From: Phycisphaerales bacterium
GTDB taxonomy: Bacteria > Planctomycetota > Phycisphaerae > Phycisphaerales > SM1A02
Length of the DNA: 64,000 nucleotides
Reading direction: 5' to 3'
Assembly: GCA_009691725.1 (NCBI GenBank)
Contig: SIAP01000008.1
Coordinates: forward strand, 1 to 64,000
Under the pieces are notes generated by a model that was given only the letters and a program-made list of their open reading frames with translations, ran no database searches and had not been told where the DNA came from. The stretch's first letter is position 1, and the number at the start of each line of letters is the position of its first letter. Of this stretch, positions 35,443 through 63,374 are shown piece after piece. A program made the translations under genes and the position numbers.

Positions 35443-36816
35443 ATGGCTATTCGATCTGGATCGTCTGGACCTCTGGTCGCACTCGCTGTCTTCGTCATCC
35501 TCACGGTGCTATCGCTCTCCACGGCGGTGGCCTTCTACATCGAGAAGGGTAAGCAAACAGAGGCTGCACAAAAGAGCGCGGCGGCGTTGACAGCCGTTGT
35601 GGAAAGTTCATTCCTGAACGATGGGGCGGGCGCTGAGCTGAAAGAGAAGGCTGCGGGCGAGAAGATGACGCTCGTCGCCATGCTGCTTGCGAAACAGGAA
35701 GAGATTCTTGTGGTCGCCTGTGGCGAAACCGTGGGCGACGCGTCCACCGTTCGCGATGCACTGGACCTCGGCGAGAACGAGAATGCGAAGCAAGCGCTTG
35801 ACGAAGCTCGGGGGAAGGCGGCGGCGGCGGCGGCGAAAGCCGTCGAACAAGAAAACATTGCGAAGCAGTCCGCAGAGCAACTCGCTTCTGCGCTCGAAGA
35901 GGCGCAGACGAAAGAGGACGCGACTCTCAAAGAGATCGCGGAGCTGGAGGACTCCATCGGTGCCTACCGTGATTCGAGCCAGCGTGCGCAATCGGAGTAC
36001 ACGCAACTTCGCGAAGAAGTCGTTCAGGCGCGCGAGGCTGCAGCTGCCGATTTCGCCAACCAACTCGCAGAAGAGCAGGAAAAACAGGCAAGTTTGGTGG
36101 CATCCAATCAAGGGCTCACAGCACGAATCGCCGTCCTCCAAAAACAACTCGAAGGATTCCGAATCAGTCCTGGCGACCCATCGCTGTTGGTGGATGGCAA
36201 GGTCGTCGATCTCTCCACGGTCAAAGATCAGGTGTACATCTCACTCGGAAGCAAGGATCGGGTTCGCCCCGGTATGACTTTCGAGGTCTATTCGGATGCA
36301 TCGGAAATTCTCTTTGACCCCAAGACGGAGACGCAGACTCCGGGAATTGCAAGTGTTGAAATCATCAAGGTTGGAGACTCGACGAGTACCGCACGAGTCA
36401 CCCGCAAGAAAACAGGCAAGACCGTCAAGCCAGGCAATGTCCTCGCAAATGCTGTGTACAGCCCCACCTACCAGTACAAGTTCATGGTCTTCGGCAAGTT
36501 TGACGTGGACAGTGATGGGAAAGTCACCGATGGCGAAGCTGACTACATCCGAGCGAAAATCAAAGAGTGGGGTGGCTTGATTGTTGATGGCGACGAACTC
36601 CGCCCCGATGTCGACTTTGTGGTTGTCGGTGCAGTCCCGCCGCGTCCGCAAGCGGGCTCGGCAATGGGTGAGGACGATGCTGCGTACGCGGCGTCGCTCG
36701 CCGCCATTCGCGCGTACGACTCCTATCAGACGTTTATTCGCGCATCGAACGCTGCGCAGGTTCCAGTGCTGAATTGGAACCGCTTCCAGATTCTGACTGG
36801 CTCTCCAGAGCGTTGA
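35443..36816 (+). CDS. Membrane-anchored coiled-coil protein with EF-hand loop and BRCT-like C-terminus
   Basis: N-terminal TM; Ala/Glu/Lys coiled coil; 'DVDSDGKVTDGE' canonical EF-hand loop; 'ADYIRAKIKEWGGLIVDGDELRPDVDFVVVGAVPP' BRCT-like. Confidence 0.65.
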   Translation: MAIRSGSSGPLVALAVFVILTVLSLSTAVAFYIEKGKQTEAAQKSAAALTAVVESSFLNDGAGAELKEKAAGEKMTLVAMLLAKQEEILVVACGETVGDASTVRDALDLGENENAKQALDEARGKAAAAAAKAVEQENIAKQSAEQLASALEEAQTKEDATLKEIAELEDSIGAYRDSSQRAQSEYTQLREEVVQAREAAAADFANQLAEEQEKQASLVASNQGLTARIAVLQKQLEGFRISPGDPSLLVDGKVVDLSTVKDQVYISLGSKDRVRPGMTFEVYSDASEILFDPKTETQTPGIASVEIIKVGDSTSTARVTRKKTGKTVKPGNVLANAVYSPTYQYKFMVFGKFDVDSDGKVTDGEADYIRAKIKEWGGLIVDGDELRPDVDFVVVGAVPPRPQAGSAMGEDDAAYAASLAAIRAYDSYQTFIRASNAAQVPVLNWNRFQILTGSPER

Positions 36817-36826
36817 TCGGATTCCA

Positions 36827-37858
36827 TTGCGTCGCGAAGGCGCCCTGAACCTCACAGTCGACTTTGCGCAGTACGCAGTCTTGCGCGGGCTTTTTGGCGT
36901 TTTTCACATGTGCGGGATCGACCAAAACATGCGGACTGCCGCAGGGTGCGGTCGACTCTATTTTCGTGCCGTGCAACGCCACCGCGAGCGTGCGATCGGC
37001 CACATCGCGCGAAGTCTGCCACACCTCTCGAGTGACGAGGTGCACCAACTTGCCTCGCGATCTGTCGAGAGTCTCTTTCAGATGTTCATGGTTGAGACGG
37101 TCGCCATTCCACGCCTGCTGACTCCAACGACATGGCCACACTATGTGAAGCCAAACCACATCGGGAAGCCTCTGCGACTTCTCGTTGGTCGCGATCCCAT
37201 CATCTTTGTCACCGGGCACTGCGGCAACTGGGAACTTCTCGGATTCGTGCTCGCACTCCTGGGATTTCACATGAGCGCACTTGCACGCCCACTTGACAAT
37301 CGCTGGATCGATCGGTGGATTCGCGATGTCCGCCAGGCGCGCGGGCTTCAGGTGCTCACCAAGTGGGGAGCAACGACGGAAGTTCAAAGGGTCATCGAGG
37401 GCGGCGGTCGCATCGGGTTCATCGCGGACCAGAATGCAGGCGATGACGGCATATTCGTCCCCTTCTTTGGGCGGCTCGCGTCGAGTTACAAATCTATTGG
37501 ACTCCTGGCGATGCGCTACGACATTCCAATCGTCGCGGGAGCAGCGCGACGCTGCCAGAGCCGGTTTTCGTACGAGTTAGACGACCTTGACATCATCTAT
37601 CCACACGAGTGGAAGGATCAGCCCGATCCACTCTTTTATGTCACGGCTCGCTTCAATCGTGCTATCGAGATGGGAATTCGCCGTGCTCCAGAACAGTATC
37701 TGTGGGTGCATCGAAGGTGGAAGAGCAGACCGCCCCATGAGCGACTCGGTCGACCGATGCCCGACCGACTCCGCGAAAAGTTGCGCAGTCTTCCGTGGAT
37801 GAGTGACGAAGAGATGGAACGGCTCGAACGGCCCATTGAACCATTGCAGGTACGGTGA
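36827..37858 (+). CDS. LpxL/HtrB-like lysophospholipid/lipid A acyltransferase
   Basis: 'FVTGHCGNWELLGFVLALLG', 'RIGFIADQNAGDDGIFVPFFGRLASSYKSIGLLAMRYDIPIVAGAARR'; TTG start. Confidence 0.85.
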   Translation: MRREGALNLTVDFAQYAVLRGLFGVFHMCGIDQNMRTAAGCGRLYFRAVQRHRERAIGHIARSLPHLSSDEVHQLASRSVESLFQMFMVETVAIPRLLTPTTWPHYVKPNHIGKPLRLLVGRDPIIFVTGHCGNWELLGFVLALLGFHMSALARPLDNRWIDRWIRDVRQARGLQVLTKWGATTEVQRVIEGGGRIGFIADQNAGDDGIFVPFFGRLASSYKSIGLLAMRYDIPIVAGAARRCQSRFSYELDDLDIIYPHEWKDQPDPLFYVTARFNRAIEMGIRRAPEQYLWVHRRWKSRPPHERLGRPMPDRLREKLRSLPWMSDEEMERLERPIEPLQVR

Positions 37859-37951
37859 TCGTTCCACGCTAGTATCTGTGGAGGTTCCGGGCGATTGAGT
37901 CATCCCCCACGGATGGGTCATGACAGGTTCGGTCGCTCGAGAAACACACGC

Positions 37952-38986
37952 ATGAACATCAGCCAGGCTTCCTCGGTTGCGCCCATGATGCGCCCCTCCG
38001 CGACGATTCCAACCGAAGTGTTTTTGCGTTACCTGTTGCCGGTCATCGTGGTGCACGGGCTTGGAATGCTGGTGGTGTTGCCAATCTTTTTCTCGTGGAC
38101 TGGAGTGATCGTGTGTCTGGTCGGAGTCCACATCTTTGGGCAAGCCATCACCATGGGCTATCACCGACTGCTCGCACACCGCAGTTTCGAGGTGCCCCGT
38201 TGGTTTGAGTGGACACTGACCACGCTCGCGCTCTGCTGCCTGCAGGACACACCCGCGCGCTGGGTCGCAACGCATCGCAAGCATCATGTTCATAGTGACG
38301 AGCACGACGATCCGCATTCTCCTCTCGTGGCATTTCTCTGGAGTCACATGGGATGGCTCTTCTTGCGCAATCATGACCTGACGCATGTCTCAAACTATTC
38401 GCGTTTCGCACGGGACATCCTGGAGGATCCCTTCTACTTCTGGCTCGAGCGTCACCCCGTTGCGCCACTGGTTATCTACTTTGGACAGACCATCGTCTAC
38501 TTTGGGCTCGCCTTTGGAATTGCCGCACTCGCCGGGACGCCGTTGACCGAGGCAGCTCTCTTTGGGACGAGCGTCGTGCTCTTTGGAGTCTTCGCGCGCA
38601 CCGTGCTTGTCTGGCACATCACATGGAGTGTGAATAGCCTGACACACATGTTCGGCTATAGCAATCATGACACCGGCGAGCAGAGCAGGAACAACTGGTT
38701 CGTGGCGCTCGTTGCAGCTGGCGAGGGCTGGCACAACAATCATCATCACGATCCCTCGGCCTGCACTGTCCAACACAAGTGGTGGGAGTTCGACCTCACG
38801 TACTGGGAAGTCCGAGGGCTGCAAGCGATTGGCATCGTTGGAAAGATCACCCCGCTGCGGACCGAACGCATTCGGATGGCGGCTCGTGGGAAAGCGCGCG
38901 ACACTTCAAATCCGGCGAGAGCGGTCGAGGTCTCGCAACCATTGTTGGATTCGTCGCAGAGCCCGCACAAAAGCCAGTTGTCCTAA
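37952..38986 (+). CDS. Fatty acid desaturase (acyl-CoA delta-9 type)
   Basis: Histidine boxes 'HRLLAHRSF', 'HRKHHVHSD', 'GEGWHNNHHHDP'. Confidence 0.9.
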   Translation: MNISQASSVAPMMRPSATIPTEVFLRYLLPVIVVHGLGMLVVLPIFFSWTGVIVCLVGVHIFGQAITMGYHRLLAHRSFEVPRWFEWTLTTLALCCLQDTPARWVATHRKHHVHSDEHDDPHSPLVAFLWSHMGWLFLRNHDLTHVSNYSRFARDILEDPFYFWLERHPVAPLVIYFGQTIVYFGLAFGIAALAGTPLTEAALFGTSVVLFGVFARTVLVWHITWSVNSLTHMFGYSNHDTGEQSRNNWFVALVAAGEGWHNNHHHDPSACTVQHKWWEFDLTYWEVRGLQAIGIVGKITPLRTERIRMAARGKARDTSNPARAVEVSQPLLDSSQSPHKSQLS

Positions 38987-38997
38987 TCTCGCATCCC

Positions 38998-39300
38998 ATG
39001 CGCGTCCTGGTCATTCTTCCATCTGCTGCGTCAACGAACGCGGGGAACCCAACCCTCGGTTCTCGAAAGTGGCTCCAGACCAGTCTCGCCACGCTCAACA
39101 TTTTTCCAGAATCGGCTGGAGGTGACATCTGGTACGGACCTGGAATCGAATTCCAACTCGCTCCAAACCAAGACCCTGTGGTGCAGATGCTGCTCATGGT
39201 GACCGACGAAGACATCGCATGGTTGGTCATCGAGCGCATCGGAAAACTGATGAAGTGGAAGTTCGTTGATGTCAACACGGGACATGAACTCGTCCACTGA
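38998..39300 (+). CDS. Small conserved-looking hypothetical protein (100 aa)
   Basis: Internal ATG of ORF 38779..39300; placed between same-strand genes, overlaps next start. Confidence 0.5.
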   Translation: MRVLVILPSAASTNAGNPTLGSRKWLQTSLATLNIFPESAGGDIWYGPGIEFQLAPNQDPVVQMLLMVTDEDIAWLVIERIGKLMKWKFVDVNTGHELVH

Positions 39301-40618
39301 ATTCCTTTCCAGACTTCGCGCGCATCTGCGCTCTGATCGCTTGGTCGTTGTTGGACTCTGTTCCGTTGCGGTGATCGTGCTCGCCAGGTGTACCGCAGCA
39401 CAGACCCAACACTCCCCACAGGACTCCGCTTCGTCTCGTTCATGGCCTCGAACGGCGATCACCGCACAGGGTGATCGCGTCACACTGAGCTCTCCACATG
39501 TTGACGAGTGGCGCGATGGAACGCTCTTTGTGAAGTGTGCGACAAGGGTGCAATTGCATGGCGCAACCGACTCCTGCATTGGTACTGTCAACATCTGCGG
39601 TCGTTCGATGCTCGATCACCACTCGCGCGATGTGACAGTCAGCGATCTCACCCTTCCCGCCATGAGATTTCCCACGGACGAAGCGGGAATCGTGCCGATT
39701 CGTGATGCTGTCATGCAGGCGCTTTTTGGTTTGACTCTGCGCATCCCGCTGGACGATTTGCTCGCGTCGATGAACTGGAACGCGATGTCGCTCCCCGTTC
39801 CAGCGCCGCATCTCCCGCACAGGCTCTTGCCCGCCGACGCGCTCGCGATGACCACGCCTGCAGAGTTTCAGGTGATCGTTCCCACGGCGCTGGAAGGTTG
39901 CACCAACTCCACCTCGCCTCTCTTTCGGATCGACACTGGCGTGTACTACATCGTCGATGGAGGCGAGTGGTACTCGTGCGATGGGCTCGATACCAATTCG
40001 TGGTCGTGGGTCGATCCCTCAACGCTCCCCACTGCACTCAGTGAGATTCCAGAGCACTCTCGATGGGAGGGAGCTCTCGCGCATCTTCCGTCGACTGGGC
40101 AGTTCTGCGAGGCGCAGTTCATTCGTTCACTCACTCCAGTTTCGCCGCCCCCTGGTGCTGATCTCTCGTCCTGGTGGAATCCGTGGGAGGGATCCTGGTG
40201 GAGCAGTCGCGAGAGTGCCGCGGAGCGATCCCTGCGACTCGACGCGCACCCGCGCTCGGTGACCGACGCGTTGACGGTGGACCCATCACAGGAGAATCTC
40301 TTTATCGGGCTTGATGGTCGGGTGTATGCCCACCGAGAAAACCGTTGGTATCAAAACAAACCAGATGGCGATTGGGTTGAGTACACAGAGCAACGCTCCA
40401 CCGCTCGTTTGCTGAGGGACGCATTGCGCGCACGCGAGGCTGCACGACATCGCCGCACACAATTCGAATCGTGGCGGAGAGCGCAAGAGGCGTTGGATGA
40501 GGCAACACCGAATACCTCTTCGCAAGAACATCTCTCGATGCAGACGGGACGACCCTCCTGTGTTGGCATGAGGCACACTGCGCGTCCATCGACTGCGGCG
40601 AAGCAAACACAGGAGTGA
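39284..40618 (+). CDS. Exported hypothetical protein
   Basis: 'MNSSTEFLSRLRAHLRSDRLVVVGLCSVAVIVLARCTAAQ' membrane/lipoprotein N-terminus; long open frame. Confidence 0.55.
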   Translation: MNSSTEFLSRLRAHLRSDRLVVVGLCSVAVIVLARCTAAQTQHSPQDSASSRSWPRTAITAQGDRVTLSSPHVDEWRDGTLFVKCATRVQLHGATDSCIGTVNICGRSMLDHHSRDVTVSDLTLPAMRFPTDEAGIVPIRDAVMQALFGLTLRIPLDDLLASMNWNAMSLPVPAPHLPHRLLPADALAMTTPAEFQVIVPTALEGCTNSTSPLFRIDTGVYYIVDGGEWYSCDGLDTNSWSWVDPSTLPTALSEIPEHSRWEGALAHLPSTGQFCEAQFIRSLTPVSPPPGADLSSWWNPWEGSWWSSRESAAERSLRLDAHPRSVTDALTVDPSQENLFIGLDGRVYAHRENRWYQNKPDGDWVEYTEQRSTARLLRDALRAREAARHRRTQFESWRRAQEALDEATPNTSSQEHLSMQTGRPSCVGMRHTARPSTAAKQTQE

Positions 40619-40631
40619 TTTCTCGCAACGC

Positions 40632-41354
40632 TCAGAGCGGCAAACGCTCTGGCTCCCCGACAGCGCGCGGATAGCGGTTGGGGGTCTTGCCGGACTTCTC
40701 GACGATGACCAGTGTTCCAGTTGGAGTACGCAATTGTTCGACGACCACTCCACGCAGTTCGCCCAGCGCGTGAACTGACGCAGCAACTTCCGCTGCGGCT
40801 TGCTCACCCTTCACGGCAATGAAGATCCCGCCATGCCGCACCATCGGCAGCGACAACTCCAGCAGAATCGGCAGTCGAGCCACCGCGCGACTCACGACCA
40901 CATCGATGACCTCACGGAGCTCTTTCGCGCCGAGCACTTCTGCGCGCTGGCAGCGCACACGCACATTGCTGAGACCCAGTTGCGACGCCGTCTCTTCAAG
41001 GAATCGAGCCTTTTTCCCAGTGGATTCAACGAGAGTGAACTCAACGCTCGGCATCACGATCGCGAGGATCAGGCCGGGGATCCCTCCGCCGCTCCCGATG
41101 TCGACGACACTGCGCGCCTCGCTCTGCTGAAGCGTCGGCAGGAGCGTCAGCGCATCAAAGATGTGACGCATCCACGCGACTGTTCGGTCGCGAATCCCGG
41201 TGAGATTCATTCGCTCATTCGCTGCATAGAGAAGATCGAGATATCGCGTCAAGAGCACCAACTCGGATGATTCCACTTCGATGCCGTATGCATGGATCGC
41301 AGCGCGAAACTCATCGGTCGGTCCATTGGATTGCGCCGAAGGCAGATCGTTCAT
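40632..41354 (-). CDS. rsmG: 16S rRNA (guanine527-N7)-methyltransferase
   Basis: 'YAANERMNLTGIRDRTVAWMRHIFDALTLLP', 'VVDIGSGGGIPGLILAI', 'VVSRAVARL'. Confidence 0.93.
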   Translation of the reverse strand: MNDLPSAQSNGPTDEFRAAIHAYGIEVESSELVLLTRYLDLLYAANERMNLTGIRDRTVAWMRHIFDALTLLPTLQQSEARSVVDIGSGGGIPGLILAIVMPSVEFTLVESTGKKARFLEETASQLGLSNVRVRCQRAEVLGAKELREVIDVVVSRAVARLPILLELSLPMVRHGGIFIAVKGEQAAAEVAASVHALGELRGVVVEQLRTPTGTLVIVEKSGKTPNRYPRAVGEPERLPL

Positions 41355-52318: not shown

Positions 52319-53530
52319 ATGAAGCCCCACAGCAAGAAGCCCCTCCATCTCGAGAGTCGATGCATCCACGGCGGACAACGCCCCGATCCAACCACGGGCG
52401 CGGTGATGCCGCCGATTTACACCTCGTCGACTTTCGTCCAAGAGTCGCCAGGTGTGCACAAGGGTTTTGAGTATTCGCGCAGCCACAATGTCACGCGGTT
52501 TGCCTTTGAGCGTTGCATTGCGGACCTCGAATCGAGCGGACTGAGCGAAGCGGAAGATCGCACGCAAGGCGGGTTCGCGTTTGCGAGCGGACTCGCGGCG
52601 AGCGCGACCTGTCTCGAGCTGCTCGACGCCGGGTCGACGATCCTGTGCATGGATGATGTCTACGGCGGCACCAACCGACTTCTCCAACGAGTTCGGCAGC
52701 GCTCACAGGGACTCAAAGTGGTCTTCGCAGACATGAGCGACCCCGTCGAGCTCAATCGCGTTGCGACGGCGTGCAAGCCACAGATGATTTGGACGGAAAC
52801 TCCGACGAATCCAACGCTCAAGGTTGTGGACATCGCTGCGGTCGCACGCGTTGGAAAGGCGGTTGGCGCCATCACCGTCGTCGACAACACCTTCGCATCG
52901 CCCATTCTTCAGCGCCCACTCGAACTGGGCATCGACATCGTGATGCACTCAACGACGAAGTACCTCGGCGGGCATAGTGATGTCGTCGGCGGATGTCTCG
53001 TCACGCGCCATCGCGATCTCGCAGAGAAACTCAGATTCATGCAGAACGCAATCGGCAGCGTGATGGGTCCCTTCGATGCCTATCTCACGCTGCGCGGAGC
53101 AAAGACACTGAGCCTACGGATGCGCCGCCACTGCGAGTCTGCGCAGCGCATCGCAGTGTGGCTCGAATCTCACCCCGCTGTCGAGCGCGTGGTCTACCCG
53201 GGACTCGCATCCCATCCACAACACGCACTCGCCGCCCGTCAAATGCAATTGAACGGCGCACCTGCGTTCGGTGGCATGATCACGATCCATCTTCGCGGCG
53301 GCATTGATGAAAGTCGCCGGTTCTTGGAACGCGTTCACCTCTTCGCCCTCGCCGAGAGTCTCGGAGGCGTCGAAAGCTTGATCGAACACCCAGCGATCAT
53401 GACACACGCGAGCGTGCCTGCAATAGAGCGCGCGGCGCTGGGAATCAGCGATTCGCTGGTGCGACTTTCGGTTGGCATCGAAGATGTCGACGACTTGATC
53501 GCAGACCTTTCGCACGCGCTTGTGAAGTGA
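52319..53530 (+). CDS. Cystathionine gamma-synthase/lyase family PLP enzyme
   Basis: 'TSSTFVQESPGVHKGFEYSRSHNVTRFAFERCIADLE', 'VDNTFASPILQRPLELGIDIVMHSTTKYLGGHSDVVGG' (PLP Lys), 'SLGGVESLIEHPAIMTHA', 'LVRLSVGIEDVDDLIADL'. Confidence 0.93.
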   Translation: MKPHSKKPLHLESRCIHGGQRPDPTTGAVMPPIYTSSTFVQESPGVHKGFEYSRSHNVTRFAFERCIADLESSGLSEAEDRTQGGFAFASGLAASATCLELLDAGSTILCMDDVYGGTNRLLQRVRQRSQGLKVVFADMSDPVELNRVATACKPQMIWTETPTNPTLKVVDIAAVARVGKAVGAITVVDNTFASPILQRPLELGIDIVMHSTTKYLGGHSDVVGGCLVTRHRDLAEKLRFMQNAIGSVMGPFDAYLTLRGAKTLSLRMRRHCESAQRIAVWLESHPAVERVVYPGLASHPQHALAARQMQLNGAPAFGGMITIHLRGGIDESRRFLERVHLFALAESLGGVESLIEHPAIMTHASVPAIERAALGISDSLVRLSVGIEDVDDLIADLSHALVK

Positions 53531-53535
53531 TCCTG

Positions 53536-56205
53536 TCAGCGGGTCGGCGCTGGCGGTAGCGCAGAAGAAGTTGCAGAACGGTCCACCCAGAAACCATTGC
53601 GCCAGAGTGAACGCGCGACGTCCGCGCCAAACAATTCGCTCGGCGACCCGAGCGGAGCATCTCCGATTGGTCGACCTTCGCCAAGTGCAAACGCATCGGA
53701 CCAGAGATCATCTTTGGATCGCAAGAGCGCCCGCTCCAGACGGAGTAACGATTCGATCGTCTCGTCGGAGAGCGTTGGCGCAACCCCATTCACACTCTCC
53801 AGCGCGATGCGATCAAACTCTGCGGCACCGCCCGGCACTTCGGCAATGAGCGTCTCAAAGACCGCGCGTACCTGCGCGTCCTTGAGACGATCATTCGATC
53901 TTCGCCCGTTTCCTCGGCGATACTCGGTCAGCGCATCAACAATTGCCAGGCGCACCTGAGATCCGCTGCGTCGCACACTCGCGTGGGAGTCACCCTTGAC
54001 CTCGAGTTGCGTGTCGCTGAATCGTTGCGCGATGGCGAACCACCAACGCGCGAGCGTCCCCCCGCTGGAATCGAGCGAATCCTCGAGCGCCGCCAGTCCA
54101 AGCGCCGCTGAGGTACCGACCTTCTGCGAATCCAGCACTCCAGCGAGGGCATACAACTGTCGAGCGAGAGCGCGACTCTCGGGCTGGCCCGAATCATCCG
54201 CGACCTCTTCCGCGAGGCGCAGATAATCCTCGGCCACCTCCGGATCGAGCGCCGCAAGTCGCGCACCCCACCGCTGCGATAGCTCGTTGGATGTTGGCAC
54301 ATCCCACTCGCGGGACGTTGGGGCATCCAATATGAAGGGCTCGGCTGCCCTCCATGGCGGCAGACCCAACGAGATCGCATCGAGCGCCAGCATTCCTCGC
54401 GCATTGGCGATCGCCTGCCCGAGTGCGGTCGATGCGTGCGCACGCGCTGCGGCTGCGTCCCCAAGCACGCCTGCGATGGATTGTCGATCGACAGCACGTC
54501 TCTCGGTGAGAGCGGATGATTGTGCTCGAAGCAATGCGCTCCCATTCAACACGAGCGCATGCAATGCTCCACCCAACTCCCAACGGTCGTCGCGAACACG
54601 CGCGGCGCTATTGTGTGGATTGATGCACCAAAGAAGTTCAGCCGGATCTTGCGACGAGGTGGTGATCGACAACCGGCGAGCGATCTTTCCAAGCGTGATG
54701 ACTACATCTTGGGTTGCGCGATCCAATTGACTCGCACGCGACCCGCGCAACTCGATCATCTTCCCGACAAGTGCGGCGTGTGATCCGCAGTGCCCCTCAA
54801 GTCCACTCGGATCGACGCCACTCAGCGCACGAATCATGCCAGAAAGCGCAGGATTCGCAGCGAATTCGTCGAACCGTTCATCGATTGCTTCGAGCACTGA
54901 CATCGCATCCATGCCGCGCGCCACCAGGATTCCCTGCGCGATTGTTCGACTCGCCGATGTGGGTCCCTTCAGAACCTCTTCCACCAATCGTCGCGCATCG
55001 AGCGGACCCGGCGCGATCGGACGCGTGCGGTACTCGCGAAGGATGGCGAGTCGTGCTTGATTCGTCCCCGCGAATAGAGAGAGGCTCTTGCGCAGTGCGC
55101 CATCATGTTCCATCGTCACGGGAAGCAGTGGCGAAGAGCGTGCTGGCATACTCACCGCAACGTCAGTCGAAACAGTTTCAAGCAGCAGCGAAGCCTCGCG
55201 ATCCTCACCCACCTCCAACTGTCGCGCCACAAGGTCCAGGACCATCATCCGCTCGAGCAAGATCGTTTGTCGCAGTGGCTCATCGAGAGCGTCGATTGCA
55301 ACAACTCTCTCGCCGCCGATGGTCATGGCCCTGGCGGGAACTCCAGATTCTGTGTTTGGAATGGCAGACGCTGCATCGACTGCACGTCGCCACCGCTCGC
55401 GCAGAGCCCGGGTGAACTCGGTGAGCTCTGGTCGATCGACAGTCGATTCTTCGGGGAGTGACTGCGACTGCGGGGTTGAACCCCGTGGTTGAGTGGATGG
55501 GTCAGTGGGTTGGGTATCGGGACGGGGATTCCGCGCGCTCCAGTCCTGCAGAGTGGTGGGCGACTCACCGACGACGGGCGCATCGGCACTGGCCTGTTGA
55601 GGTGTGCCATCACGAGGCACCAACGGAGATTGCACTGCAGTCGCCGACGCATCGACCGCCGAAGCTGCAGGGGTCTGTGATCGCATCATGACGATCTCAC
55701 CAATCAGTCCAATCACCGAGAGCACGACTGCAGTCGCAAGCAACCACGGCACTGGGTGTGTGGCATCACCAGTGACGGGCTCATTGGTGACCCTCTGCAC
55801 AACATCGATGGGACGATTCGATCCGACACACACCGCAGACCGATTGACCGCAGTCTGCGCAAGCAACATTCGCGCTCGACGGGGGTCTCGGCGCATGTAC
55901 ACCATTGCCGCCATCCCTCGAACCCGCAGATGCGGCGGATGTGATGGCGCGTGTGATGGCGCCGCGTCGGGTCGATCGGTTGGACCCGACCCGCTCGCCG
56001 CCGCCACGCGCTGCGCAGCGTTGCGAACTTCGCGCATCGCCATTGCAACGACTTGCGCTGGCTCATCGACATGCGCCGCAATCGCGCGAAGTCGAGCCTC
56101 CGTTGCAGCGATGATGAGTGCGCGAGTCGCCCCCAGACTCACCCCGAGCAATGCACAGTCATCAGCATCCGCCGCAATCTTGAGCAGTCGGCGTGCGTCA
56201 CTCAC
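53536..56205 (-). CDS. Large single-pass membrane protein; possible J-like N-terminal domain
   Basis: 'CALLGVSLGATRALIIAATEARLRAIAAHV' N-terminal helical domain, TM 'WLLATAVVLSVIGLIGEIVMM', large helical C-terminal region. GTG start overlaps the upstream stop by 4 bp. Confidence 0.65.
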   Translation of the reverse strand: MSDARRLLKIAADADDCALLGVSLGATRALIIAATEARLRAIAAHVDEPAQVVAMAMREVRNAAQRVAAASGSGPTDRPDAAPSHAPSHPPHLRVRGMAAMVYMRRDPRRARMLLAQTAVNRSAVCVGSNRPIDVVQRVTNEPVTGDATHPVPWLLATAVVLSVIGLIGEIVMMRSQTPAASAVDASATAVQSPLVPRDGTPQQASADAPVVGESPTTLQDWSARNPRPDTQPTDPSTQPRGSTPQSQSLPEESTVDRPELTEFTRALRERWRRAVDAASAIPNTESGVPARAMTIGGERVVAIDALDEPLRQTILLERMMVLDLVARQLEVGEDREASLLLETVSTDVAVSMPARSSPLLPVTMEHDGALRKSLSLFAGTNQARLAILREYRTRPIAPGPLDARRLVEEVLKGPTSASRTIAQGILVARGMDAMSVLEAIDERFDEFAANPALSGMIRALSGVDPSGLEGHCGSHAALVGKMIELRGSRASQLDRATQDVVITLGKIARRLSITTSSQDPAELLWCINPHNSAARVRDDRWELGGALHALVLNGSALLRAQSSALTERRAVDRQSIAGVLGDAAAARAHASTALGQAIANARGMLALDAISLGLPPWRAAEPFILDAPTSREWDVPTSNELSQRWGARLAALDPEVAEDYLRLAEEVADDSGQPESRALARQLYALAGVLDSQKVGTSAALGLAALEDSLDSSGGTLARWWFAIAQRFSDTQLEVKGDSHASVRRSGSQVRLAIVDALTEYRRGNGRRSNDRLKDAQVRAVFETLIAEVPGGAAEFDRIALESVNGVAPTLSDETIESLLRLERALLRSKDDLWSDAFALGEGRPIGDAPLGSPSELFGADVARSLWRNGFWVDRSATSSALPPAPTR

Positions 56206-58955
56206 TTGGATGATCCTCCCGACCGTGGTGGCGCCGAAGGCGTGACACCGAGGCGAGTCGCAAGGGTCTTCAACCGCGCACCCTCAGTTCCTGGCCCCCA
56301 TTCTGGAATCAGCACAGCGTGCTGCGCCAAGATCTTTCGCACCTCCTCGGGTTGCGTGATCGCCATCAACTCGCAGAGATCAGCTTTGCGACCAAACCAT
56401 TCGACGGATTGCACAGGAAGCGCACTGACCAGTCGTGAGAGTGCCTCGAATGCCGACGCCCGATCGCCTGCTCCAATCGCGGCGTCTGCGAGAATGGTAA
56501 ACCCCTCGATGTCGTCGGGTCGCTGCGCAAGCAGCTCGCGCGCGATCGAGATCGCTTCTCTGGAGAGCGTGGTCGCAGGTGTCCCTCGGGGTGCATCGAC
56601 TCCAAACGCACTCTGCTGGGCGAGTGCGTGCGCCGCAGCGAGAAGTTCGCGAGCGAGTGCCCGGTTCGCTGCATCTGCCTGCGCTGGATCGCCAGACTTT
56701 CGCGCGATCTCGCGGAGTGCTCGCCGAGCGGTGACGAGACCGAGACGCGCCTGCACGACCTGACTTGACGACCCGCCGGGCTTCGACAAGAACGCATCCA
56801 TCGACTTGACATACAGATTTTCGCCGAAGGGCGCCCACTGCGCGTCCGCGATTCCTCGCAGCGTGCGTATCGCCTCGTGCGCAATGGCTGGATCGCCGCA
56901 CGCGAGAGCGACTGCGAGCCTGCGCACAGCGAGTTCCGAGCGAATCTCCAGAGGCTCCTGCCCCACGGGAAACTCCTTCCAGATGCCTTCGAGAATGGTC
57001 TGCGCGTCATCCACTCGACTGACTTCAGGGTCCAGTGCAGCTTCCAACTGCTGTCGCATGACGATGTCGATGGAATTCGCTGGCCACCACTTCGCCTCGA
57101 CAGGAGGGATGGCCAACAAACGCAATGCGTGATCCCGTCGACCAGATCCCGACGCCGCGCGGAATCGTCGATAGAGGAGTTCACCTGCCTTGACGCGTGC
57201 TTTCGACGTGCCATCACTGCGCATCGCATCCCGGACGAGTCGATCCACCAACGCATCATCGGTGTGCGCATCGACACGACGCGCCAGAATCGACGCAGCG
57301 TCCACTGCATGCAGTCCAGCATCGAACTGCAGGAGATAGGCACTCGCGAATTCGAACCCCAATCCTCCCGGCACTCCTTGCGAATCTGCGCAGTCGCCGC
57401 GAGCTGCGCAGTCAACGGCCATCCACATCACTGCTTCTGCACGCTGGCCAGTCGACTGATTCGCCGCCAAGAGAAAGGACTCCGCTGCGTCACACCGAGT
57501 ACCCGCTCCGAGTTGCGACCACGCCAGCAACTCGACCACCGCCGCGCGGGTGTGCCGATCTTCAGGAACAAGTTCGAGCGCACCTGCGAGTTCTCGGGCA
57601 GCCGCGTGCATCAACGAGGTCTTGATCCCCGAGTCACTCTCGGATCGACCTCGGTCATACGCATCGATCCCACGGGAGAGTGCTGCCGAAAAATCTGTCC
57701 CCTCACGCAACGCTGGGGCGCAACGGGCGAGTCGACGAACCGCCGCAAAGTCCCCTCGGATCGCCGCCCATCGCATCGCAGCTCGTGCGAACTCGATCGC
57801 CGCCGTCTCGTTCTTAGACTCGTTGAGTGCGCGAATGGCTGCGCCCACCACGGTCGCGCCATCGAGCGCAACCGAAGGCACTTCGATCAACTTGCGGGCA
57901 CGGGCATATTCCTGTGTGTCCACCAGTGCGTGCAGATACCAGGCAGAATCATCCGCCAATCCATCCCACACTCCGGGTTGGTCGAGCAGGTCGAACCAGC
58001 CATCAGCAATCGTCATTTCACTCTGCAACGCTCGCGTCAACGCCATTCCGAGGATGGACTGCGCGTAATACTCCTCACCAATCAGATCGACCGAACAATC
58101 CTGCGGTTCTGGAACGGCCTTGCCCGTCTCGAGAACTTCTGACCATGTCCCAACAAGCGAGTCCGCACGAACTTTCCATGATCCAGAGGCACTCGATCCA
58201 TGCGCTGCGCTCGGGCGATCCATCCACAACGACCAGTAGAGACACCACGCCCGCAGAAACTTGGTCGAGAGAAGCGTTGTTGATGCCTCAGTGGAAGCAG
58301 CAATCAAGCCGATTCGTTGCTGCTCCTCGATTCCTCCAATGAGCAACTGGTTTTCAGCGATGTCGCTGGAAAGTAGTTCTGCGAGTCGATCGAGAGATTC
58401 TCGTGCATGCAAGAGTGACGACTCGCCGCGAACCCGATCAGCCTTGTCGTTCGATCCCTCTCGGAACCGTTCGATGCCTCGCAACGACATTCGGTACTCG
58501 GCTCTGGCAAGCGCGAGGAGCAACGCATATCGATCTGGAATCTGCTTGCCTTGGAGAAACCGGTTGATCCGGACCCGGAGATCTGCGATTCGATCTTCAT
58601 CCGATGCGCCATTGATCAACCTCAAGTATGCGCCAGTCAATCGAGAAATCGAAGCGGGATTCGTGGTCGTCGATTTTCGAACATGTTCGTCCAGCACGAC
58701 TGTGAGCAACTCGTCCAACCCCGCTCGCGCGAGCCATTCGGTGAGAGCCGCGGATTCCTCCATGCGTTGAGCATCGTCCGTCGACTGTGCGGCAGCACTC
58801 ATCATCCCCTTCCCAACGCCCCCCGCCAACAGGACACAACTGAGCAACAGCATTCGCAGGGACGCAGTGAGTTGGATGGGATCGACGGATGCCCAGTTCC
58901 CGATCCATCGGTCATCATGCCGATCATGAGGTGTATCAGTGCGATGCGGCGACAT
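56202..58955 (-). CDS. Exported TPR/helical-repeat protein (about 917 aa)
   Basis: 'MLLLSCVLLAGGVGKGMMSAAAQ' signal-like; extended alpha-helical repeats. Confidence 0.65.
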   Translation of the reverse strand: MSPHRTDTPHDRHDDRWIGNWASVDPIQLTASLRMLLLSCVLLAGGVGKGMMSAAAQSTDDAQRMEESAALTEWLARAGLDELLTVVLDEHVRKSTTTNPASISRLTGAYLRLINGASDEDRIADLRVRINRFLQGKQIPDRYALLLALARAEYRMSLRGIERFREGSNDKADRVRGESSLLHARESLDRLAELLSSDIAENQLLIGGIEEQQRIGLIAASTEASTTLLSTKFLRAWCLYWSLWMDRPSAAHGSSASGSWKVRADSLVGTWSEVLETGKAVPEPQDCSVDLIGEEYYAQSILGMALTRALQSEMTIADGWFDLLDQPGVWDGLADDSAWYLHALVDTQEYARARKLIEVPSVALDGATVVGAAIRALNESKNETAAIEFARAAMRWAAIRGDFAAVRRLARCAPALREGTDFSAALSRGIDAYDRGRSESDSGIKTSLMHAAARELAGALELVPEDRHTRAAVVELLAWSQLGAGTRCDAAESFLLAANQSTGQRAEAVMWMAVDCAARGDCADSQGVPGGLGFEFASAYLLQFDAGLHAVDAASILARRVDAHTDDALVDRLVRDAMRSDGTSKARVKAGELLYRRFRAASGSGRRDHALRLLAIPPVEAKWWPANSIDIVMRQQLEAALDPEVSRVDDAQTILEGIWKEFPVGQEPLEIRSELAVRRLAVALACGDPAIAHEAIRTLRGIADAQWAPFGENLYVKSMDAFLSKPGGSSSQVVQARLGLVTARRALREIARKSGDPAQADAANRALARELLAAAHALAQQSAFGVDAPRGTPATTLSREAISIARELLAQRPDDIEGFTILADAAIGAGDRASAFEALSRLVSALPVQSVEWFGRKADLCELMAITQPEEVRKILAQHAVLIPEWGPGTEGARLKTLATRLGVTPSAPPRSGGSSK

Positions 58956-59355
58956 AGTCAACCTTGGAAAAACCTGCATCGTGGGCAGCTTGCAGCGCTG
59001 CAGCCACCGCTGCAACATTCGGTCCAGCATGAACGCGAATGACGACACCAAGATCGCGCGGAAGTCGGCGCAACACGGCAGCAAGATCGTCGCGTGAACG
59101 AACCTTGTGCGATCCGATGCGAAAGACCGCGTTTGCCCCATCTGCCTCGACATCGACCACTTGCGGGCTCAGTGCAGATGATCCCGCGCCGGCGCGCGCT
59201 GCTGCTGCTGCTGCCGACAAGTGCGACTCGTGTTCACCAACTGCGGCAGTGAAGATGAAGTACGACAGCAGCAAGAAGGTTGCGTCAATCATGCTTGTCA
59301 TGCTGAGCGAAATCGGACCGTGGACACCCCGCCGCGACTTGTCGCCGATCTTCAT
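58936..59355 (-). CDS. ExbD/TolR-family protein
   Basis: 'ISLSMTSMIDATFLLLSYFIFTAA' TM with conserved Asp; periplasmic 'LPRDLGVVIRVHAGPNVAAVAAALQAAHDAGFSKVDYVA'. Confidence 0.85.
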   Translation of the reverse strand: MKIGDKSRRGVHGPISLSMTSMIDATFLLLSYFIFTAAVGEHESHLSAAAAAARAGAGSSALSPQVVDVEADGANAVFRIGSHKVRSRDDLAAVLRRLPRDLGVVIRVHAGPNVAAVAAALQAAHDAGFSKVDYVAASH

Positions 59356-59771
59356 GGAGAGCCTCCCTCTGGCGTACTGGTGGCCACCCGCACCGAGCTG
59401 CATCCGCCGCTTCGCAAGCCCTCCATCACTTCGTTGAGTCGAGCGGCAGTCGCGTTGCGATCTGCACGAATCACTGGAATCGCAGAGGGATCCTGCGCCA
59501 ATGCGGACTTCGCAATCTCGGGGAGCTCGGTTGGTCCGACGTCACGATCAAACACCGTCAGGGTTCCAGAGGCACTCACATTCACCACCAACCCCGCCGT
59601 GGTCGGCGATGCGTCCACTGTTCCAACCTCAAGTGGCAGTGCGACCGGTGATTCCGCCATCTGGGCGAGTTGCGAAGTCGTCAAGAAGAAGATCAACAAC
59701 AGGAACACGACGTCAATCGTCGGCGTCATGTCGAGAATCGCGGTCTCATATCGCCGTCGCTTGATCCTCAT
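59352..59771 (-). CDS. ExbD/TolR-family protein
   Basis: 'ILDMTPTIDVVFLLLIFFLTTSQ' TM with conserved Asp; 'IPVIRADRNATAARLNEVMEGLRSGG'. Confidence 0.88.
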   Translation of the reverse strand: MRIKRRRYETAILDMTPTIDVVFLLLIFFLTTSQLAQMAESPVALPLEVGTVDASPTTAGLVVNVSASGTLTVFDRDVGPTELPEIAKSALAQDPSAIPVIRADRNATAARLNEVMEGLRSGGCSSVRVATSTPEGGSP

Positions 59772-60457
59772 CTCGCGGACGCTCGCTCATCAAGATGGGA
59801 TGGTTGCATCGACGCCGCGCCCTCGCCCTCGAGTGCCATTGCGAGCGGCTCAAGCGCACGACCTGCGTCCGACGCGGCACGATCGATCCGGCTGCGCAAC
59901 CACGAGTGGAGCATGACGCATGGAATTGCGACCACCAATCCCTGGAATGTCGTGATCAGAGCAATACTGATGTTGTATGCCAGCGTCTCGTAATAGGAGC
60001 TGCTCTTTGTCGCAGCACCTGCCACAGTTTCAAATGCGCCGATCATCCCTTGCACGGTGCCCAGCAATCCAAGGAGGGGCGCGACACTGGCGATCACAGC
60101 GATCGAATCGATCGCACGAAAGAGACGTGCCGTTTCATCTTCGCCAGCATCCTCCATCGCTGATCGCGCCTCCAATCCGCCCAACGGACCTCGAAGTGAG
60201 CGATCGATTCCAGCCGCGGCAATACGACCCAAGAATGTATCGCCCTCAGCTGATCGACACTCCGTGAGCGCAACTTCGAATTCTTTGGACTGAGCCCGCG
60301 TTCGAATCGCTGACACCTGCTCTGGCGGAACAAGTTGACTCGTCCGTGTGCGCAACATCGCTGCGATGCCATAGGCGAGTGCAAGGACGCTCAGCAGGAG
60401 AATGACGTATCCGATGACTCCACCACCATCGATGTATTTGAACAGCGTTTCCGTCAA
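59768..60457 (-). CDS. MotA/TolQ/ExbB proton channel family protein
   Basis: 'IDSIAVIASVAPLLGLLGTVQGMIGAFETVA', 'ISIALITTFQGLVVAIPCVMLHSWL'. TTG start. Confidence 0.9.
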   Translation of the reverse strand: MTETLFKYIDGGGVIGYVILLLSVLALAYGIAAMLRTRTSQLVPPEQVSAIRTRAQSKEFEVALTECRSAEGDTFLGRIAAAGIDRSLRGPLGGLEARSAMEDAGEDETARLFRAIDSIAVIASVAPLLGLLGTVQGMIGAFETVAGAATKSSSYYETLAYNISIALITTFQGLVVAIPCVMLHSWLRSRIDRAASDAGRALEPLAMALEGEGAASMQPSHLDERASAR

Positions 60458-61641
60458 TGTCGGGCTCCTTCTTGGGATGTGATCGTGTTCGATGCCCCGG
60501 GCTGATACTCCAATTGAATGCTCCGCAGTTTCGCTGCAGCATCATCGTCTTGAATGCGGTCCAGCGCGATTGCGGACTGCGCGATCGCTGCGAGCGCGAG
60601 TCGCGGTGCCTCTTGCGCGTATGCCGATGGAATGAGCAGCATCTTCCCGACGCCTGCGCGAACTTCCTCCGGATCGCTCTCGAGGGAGAAACTGCGACCC
60701 TCCGCGTAGATCGCCCACAGTCGGGCCATCCCCGGTTCGCTCGCGGAAATCTTGCGAAGATCTGCGCGGGCGCGCTTGCGGAGCAGTGCATCAGACGACA
60801 CCGCATTCGCCCACGACTCGATCAACCGGGCGCCGAGAAATCCGCTGGATCGCGCAGGTTCGGGTGCGGCATCAGGAGCTTCATTCGCCACTGCCGGAGT
60901 CGATGGGTTTGCTGGAGTTGCTGTGCGCGGTTCTCCAGCATCTGCGGCTGCGATTCGTGCTGCACACTCGAGCAAGTCTCCAAGCGCACCGAGCGAGTCA
61001 GCGCACGCGCGTGCGGATGCGGTAACGAGTTCAACTTCGGCGCGGTGAGCCGAGGCGCTGTCTGTCCACACTGGCGGGACAGCGAGCAGGAGCCCGCACC
61101 TCGAATCAAAGGGATCGCTCGCTGAGATCCGCTGGTCTTTCAGAGCAGACTGATTTCGTAAACTCGCCGCGGTGAGAGCACACTCGACACTCTTCGACCA
61201 ATCGTCGTACGCCGCAGATGCCGTGCGACCGACACCCTCGCACGCTATCCGCCGCTCCACGCTCGCCGAAGTTTCGAGTTCTGCGATGGCCGCAAGAAAG
61301 CAGGGTCGGGCACCGCGCAGATCTCCCTGCTGCAAACGAAACCGTCCCCTCCAAATGTGTTCGCCACTGCGAAGTCGGGTCGCGCGTGCGGTCACCGAAG
61401 CATCGCCATCGATGGCTCGAATCTGATCCCACCGCAGAAACTGGACAAGCGCACCCGAGTCGCTTTCAATCTGAAGTTCGATGCCATCAGGCGACTCTCG
61501 CAGGAGCGTGCCGACGCGCATCCCGCCGCCATCGCGGAGTGCAACAATGCATGCGCCGTCGTCGCTCGCACTGATGAGAGGCGAACCGAAGAGCGCGAAC
61601 CCAATGGCGACACTCCATGCAGATTCATGGGTGATCGTCAT
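60454..61641 (-). CDS. Exported hypothetical protein
   Basis: Signal-like N-terminus; 'GTLLRESPDGIELQIESDSGALVQFLRWDQIRAID' small beta domain; ATGA/TTGA overlaps on both sides. Confidence 0.6.
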   Translation of the reverse strand: MTITHESAWSVAIGFALFGSPLISASDDGACIVALRDGGGMRVGTLLRESPDGIELQIESDSGALVQFLRWDQIRAIDGDASVTARATRLRSGEHIWRGRFRLQQGDLRGARPCFLAAIAELETSASVERRIACEGVGRTASAAYDDWSKSVECALTAASLRNQSALKDQRISASDPFDSRCGLLLAVPPVWTDSASAHRAEVELVTASARACADSLGALGDLLECAARIAAADAGEPRTATPANPSTPAVANEAPDAAPEPARSSGFLGARLIESWANAVSSDALLRKRARADLRKISASEPGMARLWAIYAEGRSFSLESDPEEVRAGVGKMLLIPSAYAQEAPRLALAAIAQSAIALDRIQDDDAAAKLRSIQLEYQPGASNTITSQEGARH

Positions 61642-62624
61642 GGTGCGCGGCCCTGTGGGAATGCGGAGAATGTGCCGCCGGTTTCTGCAGCGATCCGTCG
61701 AAGCGGTGCCGCCGCAGCCTCATGACCGAATGCGATGCAGTGAATCACCGAGTTTGGGCCGCGTCGATTCAGTCGCAGAATCTCATCCGCAGCGTCCGAG
61801 GCAATCTCGCCATCACTCATAAAGAACACGACATCCGGACGATCGCGCCGCGTAAAGAGAAACTGGAATGCTGGGATTGGATCCGTTCCTCCCTTCTGTT
61901 CAATGTCGAGAATCCAATCGGTCAGTTTCGCAATCTCTGGCCTTCGGCAACGGATGAAACCAGCGTCGCGGTCAAGAGTGTCAAAGTCATCATCGAAGAA
62001 TGCAATACACACCAATGCGAAATCTGGAAGCGCGTTGATGCTGCGGAGAATCTCCTCCTTGGCAAATCGCATTCGACCATGTGTTCCCATTGAACCGGAT
62101 TTGTCAACGACATATCCGATGCGTTTGCCTCTTCCTCCGACGCCGAAGAAGGTGGTCTCACCGCCGAGACCGCCGCCGCCCGTTCCAATTCCTCCGCCCC
62201 CTCCAGACGCGAAGAGTCCGGGACCTCCAGCGGCGGCGATGGGCGATTCCCCACTTTCGTTTCCAGTCGAGACTGGCAGTCCAATCGATTCGATGGCATC
62301 GGATCCGCTGTCGGCTTCTGACGCGTGCAGTTCTGGAGCGACAAGCGAACCGCCCGCAACAACGCTCGGCGCAGGTTCCAAGAGATCACCCTCGATGAAA
62401 GAGACTTCGATTGCGTTGATATGCGTCCCCGCCAACGCCCCAACTCCCGACGAGATGCTCGAGAGAATTGCCAGCAAGACCCCATGCAACGGAATCGAAA
62501 CGAGCAGCCCGATCCAGATCCACGAGATCGCTCTCCCTCTCGATCGACTCGATGGCGGCGTGTTCATCGGCGAGAGTGCTGGAGATTCCGCCGTCATTCG
62601 TAGGAGATTGTAGTCTTTCGCCAT
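61638..62624 (-). CDS. Membrane-anchored VWA-domain protein
   Basis: N-terminal TM, Gly-rich linker 'GGGGGIGTGGGGLGGETTFFGVGGRGKRIGYVVDKSGSMG' (MIDAS DxSxS), 'GGTDPIPAFQFLF', 'VVFFMSDGEIAS'. Confidence 0.85.
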   Translation of the reverse strand: MAKDYNLLRMTAESPALSPMNTPPSSRSRGRAISWIWIGLLVSIPLHGVLLAILSSISSGVGALAGTHINAIEVSFIEGDLLEPAPSVVAGGSLVAPELHASEADSGSDAIESIGLPVSTGNESGESPIAAAGGPGLFASGGGGGIGTGGGGLGGETTFFGVGGRGKRIGYVVDKSGSMGTHGRMRFAKEEILRSINALPDFALVCIAFFDDDFDTLDRDAGFIRCRRPEIAKLTDWILDIEQKGGTDPIPAFQFLFTRRDRPDVVFFMSDGEIASDAADEILRLNRRGPNSVIHCIAFGHEAAAAPLRRIAAETGGTFSAFPQGRAP

Positions 62625-63374
62625 ATGCCCACGGGATTCTCGACTCCTCATCCTCGGTACCGCCGCGTCTTGCTGAAGTTGAGCGGAGAGAGCTTTGCGC
62701 GCGAGGGCGCGTTTGGAATTCAACCAGATGAACTCGCTGGGATTGCCGGGGAAATCTGCGCCGCGATCTCCACAACCGTGGGAGAAGAGTTACAACTTGC
62801 AGTCGTCGTCGGCGGTGGAAACATCATCCGAGGCGCACGACTCGCGGAGGTCGGAAAGTTTGACCAGTCCACGGCGGATTACATGGGGATGCTCGGCACG
62901 GTCATCAACGGACTTGCGCTCAAGGAGGCGCTTCACGCTGTGGGTGTGGAAAGTCGAGTCATGAGTGCAATCCATGTTCCCAGTGTGGCAGAGTCCTTCA
63001 TTCGAGCACGTGCGCTGCGCCATCTCGAGAAGGGACGCGTCATCATCCTCGTTGCAGGAACGGGGAATCCGTTCTTCACGACCGATACCTGCGCATCGCT
63101 TCGCGCGATCGAGTTGGGAGCAGAAGTCCTCCTGAAGGCCACGAAAGTGGATGGCGTGTATACGGCCGACCCCCGCAAGGATCCCAAGGCGACACGATTC
63201 GAGACCCTGCAATTCTCTCGCGCAATTGAACAGAAGTTCGGGGTGATGGACCTCACCGCGATGACGATGTGTATGGAACACGCACTTCCAGTGGTGGTGT
63301 TCGATTACAAGACCAAGGGCAACATTCGTCGGGTCATCAATGGCGAACGCGTCGGAACTCTCGTGACTGCCTAG
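62625..63374 (+). CDS. pyrH: UMP kinase
   Basis: 'YRRVLLKLSGESFAREGAFGIQPDELAGIA', 'VVVGGGNIIRGARLAEVGKFDQSTADYMGMLGTVINGLALKEAL'. Confidence 0.96.
   Translation: MPTGFSTPHPRYRRVLLKLSGESFAREGAFGIQPDELAGIAGEICAAISTTVGEELQLAVVVGGGNIIRGARLAEVGKFDQSTADYMGMLGTVINGLALKEALHAVGVESRVMSAIHVPSVAESFIRARALRHLEKGRVIILVAGTGNPFFTTDTCASLRAIELGAEVLLKATKVDGVYTADPRKDPKATRFETLQFSRAIEQKFGVMDLTAMTMCMEHALPVVVFDYKTKGNIRRVINGERVGTLVTA

Follow-up and report, generated by a model that had tools for sequence, protein, structure and literature searches.

A conserved eight-gene operon of planctomycetes predicted to couple a TolQ/ExbD motor to a membrane-anchored VWA protein

What does a TolQ/ExbD-type motor drive when its genes stand beside those for a VWA protein and several large exported proteins? 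This question is raised by an operon in the window, by which we mean the whole 64,000-nucleotide stretch of Phycisphaerales DNA analyzed here. The operon is predicted to encode a real, conserved machine of the planctomycete cell envelope, and we consider it likely that this machine is a proton-motive-force-driven trans-envelope force transducer, in which a motor-bound VWA protein would work with periplasmic partners. The set of eight genes is fixed and occurs in small genomes that lack TonB and its receptors; it supplies candidate genes together with predicted key residues and partners that can be tested. It bears on how planctomycetes, which have no recognizable Tol-Pal system, energize their outer membrane and keep it in place, and it provides a natural example of a motor built with two unlike ExbD subunits.

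Layout and conservation of the operon

The minus strand has seven consecutive ORFs between 53536 and 62624 (Table 1), each at the place given in the original prediction. Direct reading of the junctions agreed at every point with the five 4-bp NTGA overlaps and one 20-bp overlap that had been described (ATGA at 61638-61641, TTGA at 60454-60457, ATGA at 59768-59771 and 59352-59355, GTGA at 56202-56205, and the 20-bp overlap at 58936-58955). The pyrH gene (ORF 62625-63374) is divergent from the operon, and a plus-strand gene ending at 53530 is convergent with it. Translation of the VWA gene probably begins at the ATG at 62597 and not at 62624, because orthologues in the same genus begin at that methionine ('MTA...'). 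The start at 62624 directly abuts the pyrH start, and the start at 62597 gives 27 bp between the divergent genes.

Table 1. Genes of the operon in the window
Gene product	Position	Strand	Remarks
VWA force-transducer-like protein	61638..62624	-	328 aa; 319 aa if the start is 62597
SP2, exported, 395 aa	60454..61641	-	signal peptide, Sm/Hfq-like barrel, TPR-like solenoid
TolQ/ExbB/MotA proton channel, 229 aa, TTG start	59768..60457	-	Pfam MotA_ExbB
ExbD/TolR paralogue D1, 139 aa	59352..59771	-	Pfam ExbD; TM Asp in PTIDVVF
ExbD/TolR paralogue D2, 139 aa	58936..59355	-	Pfam ExbD; TM Asp in SMIDATF
Large exported TPR-type helical repeat protein, 917 aa	56202..58955	-	weak Pfam TPR in relatives; conserved in order
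889-aa single-pass protein, JN+JC fusion	53536..56205	-	lacks the GGWN domain of unfused relatives

Pfam searches recovered the anticipated domains over their curated cut-offs, namely VWA_3 (E-value 3e-7), MotA_ExbB (5e-26) and two ExbD domains (7e-19 and 3e-9), and found nothing significant for SP2, the 917-aa protein or the 889-aa protein. Among NCBIfam families, the seven proteins gave TolQ/ExbB/TolR/ExbD matches, all sub-threshold. A known defense system such as Zorya was rejected, as PADLOC profiles matched none of the seven proteins.

The 889-aa protein of the window corresponds in most relatives to two genes, JN and JC. In profile searches, the exact order VWA-SP2-TolQ-D1-D2-TPR-JN-JC, with every gene on the same strand, came up at 55 distinct loci, a recurrence far beyond chance; most other loci were truncated at contig ends or had JN and JC fused. 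Because JN and JC are separate in most relatives, the seven genes of the window are a genus-level feature: the eight-gene operon is the ancestral form, and the window's genus merged the last two genes. Every same-genus genome carries the operon (18/18), and most of the carriers with a name are metagenome-assembled genomes of Phycisphaerales or Phycisphaerae. In a survey of the class, the TPR protein was strong in three families of the order (f1, f2 and f4) and absent from f5, from f6 and from every other order that was sampled. SP2 was also found in eight genomes of f71, a family in another class of the phylum. Of the five f71 loci that were read, four show the operon with its gene order unchanged; the remaining one lies on a short contig and has SP2, D1, D2 and TPR. 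Conservation of the gene order thus extends to two classes. The distribution is patchy but intact, and this favors joint transfer or joint survival of the eight genes.

Two further observations concern the edges of this distribution. A contig titled Bacteroidia (L095) carries the planctomycete operon, with a 52% identical TolQ, and is probably mislabelled or mis-binned. At four loci (L121, L140, L144 and L148), a TolQ that falls inside the window's TolQ clade is accompanied by ExbD, with no recognizable VWA, SP2 or TPR neighbors.

The motor and its candidate transducer

TolQ and the two ExbD proteins carry the features of a 5:2 motor: MotA_ExbB and ExbD domains, channel threonines and a transmembrane (TM) aspartate. 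The lumen threonines are Thr145 and Thr178 in TolQ and Thr148 and Thr181 in ExbB (PMC12905483). Both are conserved in the window's TolQ, as T134 and T170, in an alignment of relatives and in the match to TolQ/ExbB in the PDB, and they line up with 'GTV' and 'ALIAT' of the E. coli-type TolQ. The TM aspartate, already recognized in the motifs of both ExbD proteins, proved invariant in 25 of 25 aligned D1 and D2 sequences. Both D1 and D2 are ExbD proteins of the short canonical kind, and they belong to two separate, always paired lineages. These constant pairs, both with the aspartate, favor the earlier suggestion of an ExbD heterodimer as far as two distinct subunits are concerned; that D1 and D2 join in one dimer is something we infer with low confidence.

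The VWA protein consists of a cytoplasmic tail, one TM helix, a motor-box candidate, a Gly-rich linker and the VWA domain. It had been described as membrane anchored with an intact MIDAS, and this description holds: the MIDAS residues DKSGS...T...D are all present, and none of 25 VWA proteins departs from D-x-S-x-S. The motif by which TonB and TolA bind their motors, known from structures, is Ser-3X-His-6X-Leu-3X-Ser (PMC12905483), abbreviated SHLS below. The helix of the window's VWA protein, S43-IPL-H47-GVLLAI-L54-SSI-S58, is an exact match to S-x3-H-x6-L-x3-S. His47 is invariant and Ser43 nearly so among the 25 VWA proteins, a set chosen without regard to the motif; motif invariance in a motif-selected alignment (A8) was excluded from the evidence. 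S/T-x3-H occurs in 87 of 90 VWA proteins versus about 10% for shuffled helix residues, and the internal controls gave 1 of 61 for JN helices and 8 of 226 for ExbD helices. The VWA helices of f71 have S-x3-H as well. The strict SHLS pattern is present in only 2 of the 90, as the leucine and the final serine are not strictly conserved. The segment 'AIEVSFIEGDLLEP', which follows the TM helix at the position of the TonB motor box, is a putative motor-box strand, and relatives keep a hydrophobic stretch, 'ExAx5EL', behind this helix. A PDB profile search with the N-terminal segment of the VWA protein gave no significant match to TonB or TolA, so the likeness is one of motif and topology and not demonstrated homology. 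Together, these features suggest that the VWA protein probably replaces TonB or TolA as the outward force carrier.

The exported and J-like proteins

In its AlphaFold2 model (pLDDT 86.7, pTM 0.84), SP2 has a five-stranded small Sm-like barrel followed by about 12 helices. It belongs to no Pfam or NCBIfam family and a PDB profile search was empty; Foldseek returned weak matches, none at E<=0.001, to TPR proteins over most of the model and to Hfq over the barrel. The 917-aa protein had been called a giant TPR protein. Pfam detects TPR weakly in the window (E 0.0047), and the TPR model matched 12 of 26 relatives, which gives weak support to an exported TPR-type repeat protein.

The 889-aa protein departs further from its original description as a single-pass J-like protein of a seven-gene operon. 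The single pass stands, and the protein is actually a fusion of two genes. Unfused JN (~900-1100 aa) has a J-like domain, a cytoplasmic 'GGWN' domain, one TM helix and periplasmic helices, and unfused JC (~250-350 aa) has a signal sequence of its own. The fused protein of the window comprises a JN part, with the TM helix at ~154-176 and periplasmic helices, and a JC part at ~640-889; the GGWN domain has been lost in the window's genus. Where present, this domain ('GGWN...R.RL...yGv...L'; L118:14250-17189 and other JN) is conserved, cytoplasmic, placed after the J-like domain and not assigned to a family. The J-like designation comes from a profile match to DnaJ2 that is weak (E 0.0095) and from a local match of the model to the 2ys8 J domain with probability 1.00 and TM 0.58 but E 1.5. 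The HPD motif, which lies between helices II and III, is absent from the window's protein and its relatives, in which only 'HP' is common. As a whole, the model is weak (pTM 0.50), and its Foldseek matches are mostly generic helical repeats.

Genome context, function and comparison with known systems

Profile searches found neither plug domain nor TonB_C in the window genome or in G037, G042 and G046, all of which carry the operon. As the window genome is 92.6% complete, its absences are provisional, and the relatives, at 99-100%, agree with them. TolB_N was found in 0 of 31 genomes, and OmpA/Pal domains in all 31; the candidate Pal-type proteins are in the genome but outside the operon. The proposal that the motor is coupled to a VWA protein instead of TonB or TolA has therefore gained on three sides: the exact SHLS helix in the window, the conserved gene order, and the persistence of the operon without TonB, plug domain or TolB.

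The five other MotA_ExbB loci of the window genome include no tol-pal operon, as judged from their neighbors. There is a second module in the same genome (L186:2457-7953; G000:C13, ~35456-40952), in which VWA, TolQ, ExbD and ExbD genes are followed by one for an 878-aa exported TPR protein. Its VWA helix has S-x3-H ('SIAMH'). The TolQ of this module clusters with VWA-linked TolQ proteins from f5/f6, apart from the window clade, on a long branch that makes the placement provisional. Two TolQ-like sets (L187:3169-5395 and L188:2624-4983; G000:C44 and C17) are followed by a 450-490-aa protein with S-x3-H ('SVGLH') in an N-terminal helix and no TonB_C, and similar secreted proteins precede both sets. 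These 450-490-aa proteins are possibly more unrecognized transducers. In a row at L189:1515-7260 (G000:C51) stand genes for a protein of 1019 aa, a distantly MotA/ExbB-like one and two ExbD-like ones that each cross the membrane once, the others without a family.

We propose the following model for the machine. A TolQ pentamer and an ExbD1/ExbD2 dimer, probably a heterodimer, would form the inner-membrane motor, with stoichiometry and proton flow taken from what is known of the family. The VWA protein would dock on the rim of the motor through its TonB/TolA-type SHLS helix. The motor could then pull or push the periplasmic VWA domain, whose MIDAS might grip a ligand in the periplasm or outer membrane, a step to which we attach low confidence. 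With similarly low confidence, exported SP2, the TPR protein, JC and the single-pass J-like protein may make up a periplasmic scaffold or adaptor, and the J-like domain may serve as a cytoplasmic regulatory arm.

The most likely role for this transducer, although we hold it weakly, would be outer-membrane maintenance or tethering as a counterpart of Tol-Pal, in a lineage that has Pal-type proteins and no TolB. It is somewhat more doubtful that the operon encodes a proton-driven machine of eight subunits, separate from Ton, Tol-Pal and Glt as well as from the minimal VWA module, and that this machine performs the essential outer-membrane tasks of Tol-Pal in TolB-less planctomycetes through a VWA/MIDAS grip and an obligate ExbD heterodimer. 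An ExbBD-type motor and a TonB-like helix with the SHLS motif could also belong to a Ton-type energizer, in which the VWA protein stands in for TonB and opens TonB-dependent receptors. Plug and TonB_C domains are missing, however, from operon-bearing genomes that are 99-100% complete. Within the genus, the two domains co-occur in the same 10 of 18 genomes, where the receptors always have a TonB_C gene on the same contig. Since the operon is kept without TonB_C, plug domain and TolB, it is not a receptor energizer; that reading is largely refuted, and we consider it very improbable. It is likewise very improbable that the VWA, J-like and SP2 proteins are mere neighbors that act apart from the motor, given the exact same-strand order at the 55 loci, the translational overlaps and the recurrence in two classes.

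Two other readings start from the kinds of parts that the operon contains. A gliding or surface-adhesion machine would use the same kind of parts as those of Myxococcus (aglR, aglQ and aglS, TPR Glt proteins and the VWA adhesin CglB), and the main text of PMC12204202 suggests as much for the VWA class. The VWA protein here is nevertheless anchored in the inner membrane and not at the surface, no FHA or outer-membrane barrel parts of Glt were seen in the operon with Pfam, and presence in all members of a genus with small genomes (~2-3 Mb) fits a housekeeping role better; we give gliding a small chance of being right. In relation to these Myxococcus proteins, section 8 of PMC12204202 gives AglZ (also 'AlgZ') as the VWA protein in Islam et al. 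2023, a paper whose title concerns CglB. Alternatively, the motor might drive secretion or the transport of lipoproteins or polymers, as GldLM does in the type 9 system, with TPR and SP2 as periplasmic carriers. Substrates could conceivably be delivered by the large exported scaffolds and the J-like domain in the cytoplasm, but the operon has no outer-membrane pore and, with D1 and D2 both short and canonical, no GldM-like long ExbD, which leaves this reading only a slight chance.

The proposed force-transducing module, built around a VWA protein as outlined above, shares features with several known systems. Like TonB-ExbBD, it has an ExbB/ExbD motor and a single-pass candidate transducer with an SHLS helix; unlike TonB-ExbBD, it has two ExbD proteins and a VWA domain in place of the TonB C-domain, and is present without TonB-dependent receptors. 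With Tol-Pal (TolQRA-TolB-Pal-CpoB) it shares a TolQ/TolR motor, an operon gene for an exported TPR protein and candidate Pal-type OmpA proteins in the genome, whereas it has no TolA C-domain, no TolB in any of the 31 genomes and no pal in the operon. In Myxococcus AglRQS/Glt, too, a single TolQ goes with two TolR paralogues, TPR proteins are exported and there is a VWA protein, the adhesin CglB; here the VWA protein is an inner-membrane one and the operon has no Glt-like part by Pfam.

The closest precedent, and the only relevant one that literature searches on VWA with ExbB/TolQ and ExbD turned up, is the work of Williams-Jones et al. 2025 (PMC12204202). Its main text describes inner-membrane VWA proteins of the PVC group with an SHLS helix and a motor box, whose genes adjoin tolQ, two heterologous tolR genes and a gene for a TPR protein, and proposes that they transduce force as TolA and TonB do, with their function stated as unknown. 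As these transducers are already in that paper, the mechanism of the original prediction finds support but is not new, and the view that such a mechanism lacks published precedent is not supported; the full composition with SP2, JN and JC, and the present gene order, are absent from its main text, and some of the loci may be in its supplement. Shared with the published transducers are the single-pass VWA protein with its SHLS helix, tolQ, a pair of different tolR genes and the TPR gene. The VWA gene comes first here and downstream of the TPR gene there, and SP2, JN and JC are extra constant members, while the C13 module of the window genome has the simpler published composition. Relative to that main text, the eight-gene composition, its order, the three unannotated partners, the distribution over two classes and the second module in one genome are new here.
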